From contig SPJM01000245.1 of assembly GCA_006844585.1 (NCBI GenBank), positions 1 through 59,874 of the forward strand: a DNA stretch of 59,874 nt, written 5' to 3'. The position numbers were made by a program, and so were the translations under genes. Shown one piece after another: positions 1-2,834 of this stretch. This stretch comes from Methylococcaceae bacterium (GTDB taxonomy: Bacteria; Pseudomonadota; Gammaproteobacteria; Methylococcales; Methylomonadaceae). The notes under the pieces were generated by a model. The model was not told where the DNA came from, did no database searches, and was given only the letters and a program-made list of their open reading frames with translations. How positions within the stretch are numbered: the stretch's first letter is position 1; each line of letters starts with the position of its first letter.

Positions 1-224
1 CGAACTTTTAGTTGCTGAATTTCTTGTTGGTCTGCCGTTAACGCTGGACTTGTCGTAGGGGTAATGCCTCCGCGCTCTGCTTTTAATTGATCGACCCATC
101 GGCGTAAAGCAGTGGAACCAATGCCCATTGCTTCACATGCCTCTTTGTACGTATAGCCTTGGTCAACTATTAAACTGGCCGCTTCAAGTTTGAATTCTGC
201 ACTGAAACTTCTTCTTTTCGTCAT
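1..224 (-). CDS. IS3-family transposase OrfA, helix-turn-helix protein (partial)
   Basis: Reading the minus strand from ATG at 224 gives a protein beginning MTKRRSFSAEFKLEAASLI and continuing with a helix-turn-helix (YKEACEAMGIGSTALRRWV) and a Q/K-rich linker. This is the classic N-terminus of the Tnp_1 (OrfA) family of IS3 elements, which binds the terminal repeats and is extended by frameshifting into the DDE catalytic OrfB. About 74 codons are visible and the 3' part is cut by the window edge. The family call is firm. The IS subgroup is not determined. Confidence 0.85.
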   Translation of the reverse strand, partial: MTKRRSFSAEFKLEAASLIVDQGYTYKEACEAMGIGSTALRRWVDQLKAERGGITPTTSPALTADQQEIQQLKV

Positions 225-537: not shown

Positions 538-822
538 ATGAAAAAACGAATTCTTTATATCGCCGCTTATGATATTCGTCATGCTAAACGTTTGCGTCGG
601 GCATTAAAAGTGGTGCGCCAATATGCATCCGGCGGTCAAAAGTCCGTTTTTGAATGTTTTTTAACGCCTGCCGAAAAAAAGGATTTACTGAATGAAATTG
701 AAACAGTGCTGGATTGCAGTGAAGACAGTTTCTTTTTATTAAGGCTGGATCAGCGCTGTACGGTGATGACTTTTGGCAAGGCGGTTCCGCCGCAAGACGG
801 CAGTTTCTATTATGTGGGGTAA
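538..822 (+). CDS. cas2: CRISPR-associated endonuclease Cas2 (first copy)
   Basis: This 94-residue protein has the ferredoxin-like Cas2 fold. It opens with a beta strand ending in the conserved acidic residue (YIAAYDIRHAKRLRR), followed by a helix and the strand QKSVFECFL. Cas2 dimers bridge two Cas1 dimers in the spacer-integration complex. ATG 538 is chosen because an in-frame ATG at 511 only adds non-conserved residues. The gene is followed after one base by cas1. It differs clearly from the second Cas2 at 2514: it lacks the ISDPKRL signature and has a different C-terminus. The family call is secure. Whether this copy forms homodimers or pairs with the other Cas2 is unknown. Confidence 0.9.
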   Translation: MKKRILYIAAYDIRHAKRLRRALKVVRQYASGGQKSVFECFLTPAEKKDLLNEIETVLDCSEDSFFLLRLDQRCTVMTFGKAVPPQDGSFYYVG

Positions 823-823
823 T

Positions 824-1777
824 ATGAGCACCTTGTATTTGGATCGAAAAAATTTAACGGTAAAGCTGGATGGCGGCGCGATGGCTTTATATGAGGAGGG
901 CGAAAAACGCGGAACAGTGCCGTTAACGCTTTTGGAGCGCATGGTAGTGCGGGGCAATATTAATGTTGAAAGTCGTTTGTTATGTGAAATGGGGAAACGA
1001 AAAATTGATGTGATTTTTTTATCCGCTCGGCATTCATATGAATCGGCAATGGCCTTTTCCCATTCTCATAACGATGTGCGGCGTCGATTAAGTCAGTATC
1101 AATCTTATTGGAATGAGACTCAACGGCTCATGTTAGCGACTGAATTGGTTGCGGCAAAATGCGCAAAACAATCTCAGTACTTAAAGCGTGCTTTAACATT
1201 ACGCCCTGATAAGCGTCGGCAGCTTTTTAAAGGCGTTAAGGTTTTGCAAAATATTATTGGGCAGTTGGATAGTTCGATGGCGATAGATCGTTTGAGAGGG
1301 TTGGAAGGGAGCGCTGCAGCGCATTATTTTTCCGCCTATCAAGCTTTATTCGCGGCAAAGCTGGGTTTTAACAAACGTCAGCGCAGACCGCCGCCTGATC
1401 CGGTGAATGCCTGCTTGTCCTTGGGGTACACTTTGCTGCACTTTGAAGCGGCGACAGTTTGTCGACAAGTGGGTTTGGAACCTTTTTTGGGGTTTTATCA
1501 TGAACCGGCGTTCGGACGCGAATCTTTGGCCTGTGATTTGATCGAGCCGTTGCGACCGCGATTGGATGAGTGGGTCTGGCGTTTGTTTCGGGATAAGCAG
1601 TTGGATAGCGCACATTTTTTTAGCGAAAATCAGCGCTGTTTATTGAATAAAGCCGGCCGTAAAATTTTTTATGCGCAGTACGAGTTGTTTTGTCATCCCC
1701 TGCGGCGATTGTTGCGCTTGCAGGGTTATCGCTTGGCGCAATTTTATTTACAATCGGCGGAGGCGGATTTTAAATGA
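824..1777 (+). CDS. cas1: CRISPR-associated endonuclease/integrase Cas1
   Basis: This 317-residue protein is the metal-dependent integrase that inserts new spacers at the leader end of a CRISPR array. The N-terminal beta domain (about 1-85) and the helical catalytic domain are both present. The metal-binding triad is intact: E161 in LEGSAAAHYF, H226 in GFYHEP and E241 in CDLIEPLRP. ATG 824 starts one base after the cas2 stop, whereas the longer reading from 773 overlaps cas2 and is not needed. It ends in an ATGA overlap with the next, Cas1-like gene, so the two are translationally coupled. Subtype cannot be assigned without interference genes. Confidence 0.93.
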   Translation: MSTLYLDRKNLTVKLDGGAMALYEEGEKRGTVPLTLLERMVVRGNINVESRLLCEMGKRKIDVIFLSARHSYESAMAFSHSHNDVRRRLSQYQSYWNETQRLMLATELVAAKCAKQSQYLKRALTLRPDKRRQLFKGVKVLQNIIGQLDSSMAIDRLRGLEGSAAAHYFSAYQALFAAKLGFNKRQRRPPPDPVNACLSLGYTLLHFEAATVCRQVGLEPFLGFYHEPAFGRESLACDLIEPLRPRLDEWVWRLFRDKQLDSAHFFSENQRCLLNKAGRKIFYAQYELFCHPLRRLLRLQGYRLAQFYLQSAEADFK

Positions 1778-2514
1778 GATCTTTATATTTAACAGCTTGT
1801 CTTGGGATGCAGGTGGTTTACGATGAACCGGCGCTGGTTGTGTGTAGTCCAGAAAAAACAAATCAACTATTTCCACTGGTCAGGATTTCCAATGTTATTG
1901 TCACCGGGTTTGTGGAATGGAGTACCGAGGCTTTTTTAGCTTGTGGGGAGGCTGGGGTTTCGGTCGTTTTTTTGGATGGAGATGGAAAAGTGAAGGGGCG
2001 TTGGTCGGCGGTGTGCAGTTCTCAGTACGCGGTATTGGAATCGGTATTTCAACGTCTAGGTCAGCCGAGAAGTGAGATAAAATACCGGAATTGGTTGAAC
2101 GGCATGCGTCGTTTGGCGGTCAGAAGCGCGGCCAGGCGTTTGGGGTTTACCGATTGGCGAAATATGGATTCTGATGCATTAAATTTCTGGTCGGTAGAAC
2201 ATCTTGGCGTTGAATGGCAAGCTATTCGACATTGGCTGGAAGGCGCGCTGAACGGTTGGGTTTTGCATCAACTTCAACAATTCGGACTTAATGCCGAAGT
2301 TGAGCAACAGTTATCGATATGTTTGGTTGATGATCTTGCCGGGTTATTGGTTGTTGATTTTTTGCCTATGCTTTTTGCAATGCAACGACAAAATTTATCT
2401 CTACCCTGCGGGGAAAGTTTAGCTGGATTATTGGAAGGGCGTAAAGCCAGGCTGGAAAATCTGTTGAATGCTCTGCTGAGTAAGTTGCATGATTGTTTTA
2501 CGGAGATCCATTAA
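1774..2514 (+). CDS. Divergent Cas1-like protein, catalytic residues apparently lost
   Basis: This 246-residue protein begins like a Cas1 beta domain: PALVVCSPEKTNQLFPLVRI, a strand-rich stretch IVTGFVEWSTEAFLACGEAG and VVFLDGDGKVKGRW. The C-terminal half has the helices expected of the catalytic domain (LEGALNGWVLHQLQQFGLN, then DLAGLLVVDFLPML). By eye the last segment aligns with SLACDLIEPLRP of the upstream Cas1. The third acidic position would then be Asp, the histidine is missing, and the loop with the first glutamate is absent. It starts by ATGA overlap with cas1 and ends by TAATG overlap with the second cas2. It is probably a non-catalytic Cas1 paralogue. The alignment was made without tools. 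Confidence 0.7.
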   Translation: MRSLYLTACLGMQVVYDEPALVVCSPEKTNQLFPLVRISNVIVTGFVEWSTEAFLACGEAGVSVVFLDGDGKVKGRWSAVCSSQYAVLESVFQRLGQPRSEIKYRNWLNGMRRLAVRSAARRLGFTDWRNMDSDALNFWSVEHLGVEWQAIRHWLEGALNGWVLHQLQQFGLNAEVEQQLSICLVDDLAGLLVVDFLPMLFAMQRQNLSLPCGESLAGLLEGRKARLENLLNALLSKLHDCFTEIH

Positions 2515-2834
2515 TGGCGATGCATCAACCGGCGCAGTTTTTGGTTTGCTATGATATTTCTGATCCTAAGCGATTACAGCGTATTCATCGGGCGTTGAAG
2601 AAGGAGGGGTTTCCGATTCAGTATTCGGTGTTTTCGGTGGTGATGAGTCAGGCGAAGATCGGCCTATTTATGCAGCGGCTGGCGTTGCTGATGGATCAGC
2701 ATGAGGATGATTTGCGTTGTTATCGTTTACCGGCGGATATGCAATGCGCTACATTGGGTCGGCAAATGTTTCCTGATGATGTCATGTTGGTTGCGAAAGG
2801 CGTGCCGCAGTTTATGTGGCCTACAAATGTTTAA
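2514..2834 (+). CDS. cas2: CRISPR-associated endonuclease Cas2 (second copy)
   Basis: This 106-residue protein carries the canonical Cas2 signature CYDISDPKRLQRIHRAL followed by GFPIQYSVFS. It then has the DDLRCYRLP strand and a C-terminal tail ending in QFMWPTNV. The start at 2514 overlaps the stop of the Cas1-like gene (TAATG), so it is coupled to it. It is more typical of the family than the first Cas2 of the operon, and the two are clearly not recent duplicates. No further cas gene and no CRISPR array follows. The next gene is the housekeeping rimP. Confidence 0.92.
   Translation: MAMHQPAQFLVCYDISDPKRLQRIHRALKKEGFPIQYSVFSVVMSQAKIGLFMQRLALLMDQHEDDLRCYRLPADMQCATLGRQMFPDDVMLVAKGVPQFMWPTNV

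Follow-up and report, generated by a model that had tools for sequence, protein, structure and literature searches.

A conserved cas2-cas1-cas1'-cas2' operon, probably a two-part spacer-integration machine of proteobacterial type III CRISPR systems

Among the closest described systems to the locus studied here is the canonical Cas1(4)-Cas2(2) integrase, known from E. coli type I-E, P. aeruginosa I-F, Synechocystis and E. faecalis. In the known complexes each Cas1 dimer holds one catalytic and one non-catalytic copy, the latter touching Cas2 (PMC6395717; PMC6895254), and a C-terminal tail has been placed in this non-catalytic, Cas2-contacting subunit (PMC6395717). For the Cas4-Cas1-Cas2 complexes of type I-C it has been proposed that asymmetry of the integrase defines spacer orientation (PMC6519985). 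What makes a symmetric Cas1-Cas2 complex insert its spacers in a single orientation is not settled, least of all for type III. PADLOC already has a profile for a degenerate Cas1, PDLC01185, under the name 'Cas1, diverged variant, second in the loci'. This entry consists of the profile and a one-line description, and we found nothing on its function, on a paired Cas2 or on a linkage to type III. Among the open-access papers searched we found none that deals with a paired Cas1/Cas1' module or with the function of Cas1', although the module may be mentioned elsewhere. Both the function and the paired module appear to be undescribed in the papers that could be searched.

The operon that we describe shares with the canonical integrase the Cas1 fold, an intact Cas1 active site and the Cas2 bridge family, but four genes instead of two would supply the positions of the complex. 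It lies in a window of 59,874 nucleotides, the whole stretch of DNA that was analysed, from contig SPJM01000245.1 of a Methylococcaceae bacterium. Four intact genes on the + strand fill positions 538-2834 of this window in the order cas2-cas1-cas1'-cas2'. They are cas2 (538..822, 94 aa, the upstream Cas2 type; PF09827 53.1 bits, TIGR01573 over cut-off), cas1 (824..1777, 317 aa, an integrase with intact catalytic residues; PF01867 249.8 bits, TIGR00287 206.5 bits), cas1' (1774..2514, 246 aa, a shortened protein with the Cas1 fold that lacks the catalytic Glu and His) and cas2' (2514..2834, 106 aa, the downstream Cas2 type; PF09827 56.5 bits). A spacing of 1 base separates cas2 from cas1, cas1 and cas1' share an ATGA overlap, and cas1' and cas2' a TAATG overlap. 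All four products pass their Pfam cut-offs (PF09827 twice, PF01867 twice), and according to Pfam and NCBIfam two of them are Cas2 and two Cas1-type proteins; where the homomeric layout has one cas1 and one cas2 gene, this operon has two of each in a conserved order. Gene calls, Pfam and the identity of only 25% between Cas2 and Cas2' thus confirm the initial annotation, which had described four tightly coupled genes for two unlike Cas2 and two unlike Cas1-type proteins. The start of an IS transposase gene (HTH_Tnp_1, 3..224, - strand, PF01527 62 bits) is found at the contig end, the contig start falling inside this gene, and it sits between the operon and the place where relatives have their array. 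Between the IS and cas2, at positions 296-469, we noted an ~86-bp repeat unit that occurs twice and carries the palindrome CACGCAGAGCGTGG; a similar motif is present near the end of contig C148 of the same genome.

By BLASTP the two Cas1-type proteins are barely alike. Profile comparison (hhalign) finds Cas1' homologous to Cas1 over its whole length (E 7.5e-8), and PF01867 scores 29.7 bits on Cas1' against a cut-off of 22.3. The best PADLOC match of Cas1', the second cas1 product of the operon, is PDLC01185 (1.1e-9), with which it shares the length of 246; the Cas1' proteins of relatives also match this profile best, in L193 with 134 bits from end to end. Residues E161, H226, D238 and E241 of Cas1 are invariant (n=27 sequences), and E161 and H226 align to gaps in the Cas1' profile, so the Glu/His/Asp set of a catalytic Cas1 is incomplete in Cas1'. 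The earlier description of one active and one degenerate Cas1 is borne out by these alignments. Purifying selection is seen on all four genes. Interruption or lack of conservation of cas1' would have spoken against the heteromeric integrase suggested in the initial annotation; in most genomes the gene is uninterrupted and under purifying selection, with a dN/dS of 0.07-0.22.

The AF2 model of Cas1' (pLDDT 89.5, pTM 0.85) has the Cas1 fold, aligning to the TM1797 Cas1 over 239 residues (Z 19.2, rmsd 3.3). In every E. coli Cas1-Cas2 entry listed (VIA list), the chain that matches this model best is B or D; in 5DQZ the matching chains are B and C, with ~300 ordered residues each, so that they would include the C-terminal tail of the non-catalytic, Cas2-contacting subunit. 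The B/D conformers may therefore be the non-catalytic Cas1 copies, a match that is only suggestive. As proof of a non-catalytic position for Cas1' the Foldseek conformer match was given up, because the control model of the active Cas1, with a poor domain arrangement and domains placed differently, was uninformative.

An order limited to a single genome would also have spoken against that suggestion, and this is not the case. In the GTDB family of the window, cas1' was found in 31 of 201 genomes and in 14 of 29 genera, and 25 of 30 loci have the complete cas2-cas1-cas1'-cas2' order; the other loci run into a contig end or have decayed, and in one the order is swapped (L058, identical to L107). 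When named genomes were scanned, we found the order in 28 of 35 loci, many of which are identical to those of the family search so that the counts overlap; the four-gene set is present in Methylotuvimicrobium buryatense 5G, Methylobacter, Crenothrix, Nitrosomonas, Plasticicumulans and Thiohalocapsa. A class-wide sample showed a clear cas1' in ~20 of 369 gammaproteobacterial genomes; the full order is present in 17 of the 18 new loci, the remaining one being truncated where its contig ends. Loci with the four-gene set occur in a second class of the same phylum as well. Hence the four-gene order is conserved far beyond chance and spans many GTDB families and two classes, all searched genomes belonging to one phylum. 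A phage or plasmid origin of cas1' was considered and rejected: the gene was not found in IMG/VR by close-relative patterns, nor in PLSDB by tblastn.

Some loci deviate from the common arrangement. In three of them a histidine-kinase-like gene stands between cas1 and cas1' (L118:3933-4715, with HisKA and HATPase_c; L119:1356-2147; L120:1651-2442). Nitrosomonas sp. ACE_PRO54 has two copies of the four-gene set (L126 and L135), and the cas1' of L135 is broken up over two reading frames. Two loci read cas2-cas1-cas2': in L206 (2484-2643) the gap begins like cas1' (VKALYIVGPQDTKVILNGPAL) and is a remnant, and in L204 (307-2036) cas1 is broken and cas1' absent. With cas1' reduced to a remnant or lost, L206 and L204 count against a single heteromeric integrase.

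The surroundings of the set point to type III. In relatives it adjoins a CRISPR array whose conserved 36-37-nt repeat mostly ends in GAAGGGATTAAGAC, along with Cas6, CARF-domain effectors and the effector genes of type III-A (csm) or III-B (cmr). A leader of ~70 bp at the array end facing away from cas2 can be recognised as conserved between genera and families, and also in the array of the window's genome. Close relatives had 0 spacers in common in five comparisons, which together with the conserved leader points to active acquisition. As had been stated before, the window itself contains no effector, Cas6 or array. They are found on other contigs of the same assembly, and the system served is type III: on contig C148 there is an array whose repeat and leader are of this kind, beside a Card1-like gene, and the end of contig C274 carries Cas6, a III-B Cas10/Cmr2, a Cmr1-like gene and one CARF gene. 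As an adaptation module of type III the set is thus identified by its adjacency to effector genes and arrays in relatives; for the window's genome, where the parts lie on separate contigs, we infer this adjacency. Neither Cas4 nor a reverse transcriptase was seen among the open reading frames and family matches near the loci read.

Several other genes were noted around these systems. In L036, L038, L042, L047, L048, L051 and L088 the neighbourhood of the csm/cmr operon and array encodes a fusion of a CARF-like protein with an adenosine-deaminase-like domain, and the same loci also have Card1-like and TIGR02710 CARF genes. L075 (2619-3218) encodes a protein of 199 aa whose N-terminus looks hydrophobic and which matches TIGR02710 CARF weakly; comparable genes are found close to the cmr operon of L077 and L088. 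The window's genome has further Cas1 proteins, one next to an array whose 29-nt repeat is type I-E-like (L057, contig C33) and one near a type I-F Cas2-Cas3 (L056, contig C129).

Among the 201 family genomes, a Cas1 search returned 26 full-length proteins at 52% identity or above, the window's own included, and all of them come with cas1'. A neighbouring clade comprises 11 Cas1s at 36-42% identity in plain type III cas1-cas2 loci (L166-L176). These resemble the four-gene loci in their related Cas1, a similar 36-nt repeat and, where read, type III effectors, but they have no cas1' and a single Cas2, which groups on the Cas2' side of the Cas2 tree. In the Cas1 tree four-gene and plain loci share a clade (100/100), in which the plain loci make up a single branch that lies either within the four-gene loci or next to them. 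This backbone fits a plain clade that is ancestral as well as one that was reduced later, and either state could be ancestral. In the Cas2 tree the upstream type is a single clade (support 99/97) and the downstream Cas2' its own clade (97/91), and both span distant families. Each Cas2 type is hence an old clade of its own, which indicates that the pair was inherited together.

As known integrases have a catalytic and a non-catalytic Cas1 in each dimer, the simplest reading of the operon is that these two roles, and likewise the two Cas2 positions, are encoded separately, and all the findings are consistent with it. The initial annotation had suggested such a heteromeric, asymmetric integrase, one side of which could sense protospacer ends or fix the direction of insertion, and as a mechanism this is plausible. 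The four-gene set would then probably be a built-in two-part spacer-integration machine. Cas1 would be the only catalyst; Cas1', keeping the Cas1 fold, would pair with it through its N-terminal beta-domain, in which the conservation of Cas1' is concentrated, and fill the seat of the second, non-catalytic Cas1 copy in each dimer of the known complex. The central bridge would consist of Cas2 and Cas2', probably as a heterodimer, which would make the complex asymmetric by construction, and new spacers would enter the array next to its conserved leader, on the side of the effector genes. Complex formation, asymmetry, subunit pairing, stoichiometry and the Cas2-Cas2' heterodimer are what we infer in this scheme. 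That the asymmetry sets the orientation or length of spacers is speculative, a guess. In type I-C it is Cas4 that makes the complex asymmetric, and no Cas4 was seen in the loci read here; it is possible, if doubtful, that in Cas4-less type III systems an integrase made asymmetric by its gene content, with split Cas1 roles and a Cas2-Cas2' bridge, fixes spacer orientation.

Other readings have to be weighed against such an integrase. Cas1' might be a regulator or adaptor outside the integrating core. By binding Cas1 (or Cas2') it would connect the integrase with a nuclease, with Cas6 or with the type III effector, or it would hold integration back until loading of a proper prespacer. The median pI of Cas1' is 6.2, compared with 9.7 for the basic Cas1; such an acidic protein is a poor fit to a DNA-binding integrase subunit and leaves room for a regulatory role. 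The same reading would account for a C-domain that is shortened and poorly conserved (0.42, against 0.66 for the N-domain; in Cas1 the values are 0.61 and 0.67) and for the faster evolution of Cas1', the dN/dS of cas1' exceeding that of cas1 in most pairs. However, Cas1' retains the full two-domain Cas1 fold, more than a simple adaptor needs, and is locked into an operon with its own Cas2, so we consider this role rather unlikely.

It is less probable still that the operon encodes two assemblies, a standard homomeric Cas1-Cas2 (or Cas1-Cas2') integrase and a Cas1'-Cas2' or Cas2-only activity with another job, for example DNA end processing. The gene order can indeed be read as cas2-cas1 plus cas1'-cas2', the Cas2 clades have remained separate, and the neighbouring clade manages with one cas1 and one Cas2'-like cas2. 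Yet a Cas1' without the catalytic Glu and His could hardly integrate together with Cas2' alone, and the strict co-inheritance of all four genes argues for a single machine. Finally, Cas1' and the second Cas2 could be decaying leftovers of a duplication, as the broken or missing cas1' of L135, L206 and L204 might suggest. We regard this as highly improbable and largely refuted, since in nearly all loci of many families cas1' keeps its full length without interruption and evolves under purifying selection; decay or an assembly artefact was rejected on the same dN/dS values and wide conservation. The module is the one for spacer acquisition in a widespread proteobacterial type III branch, and with moderate rather than firm confidence we favour the reading that it makes one heteromeric integrase with Cas1' as its dedicated non-catalytic subunit.

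If the roles are indeed split over four genes, each position of the complex could be mutated alone, which is impossible in two-gene systems. The four-gene set is fairly common among the sampled gammaproteobacterial genomes, and as such it belongs to ordinary bacterial immunity and is not a rarity.
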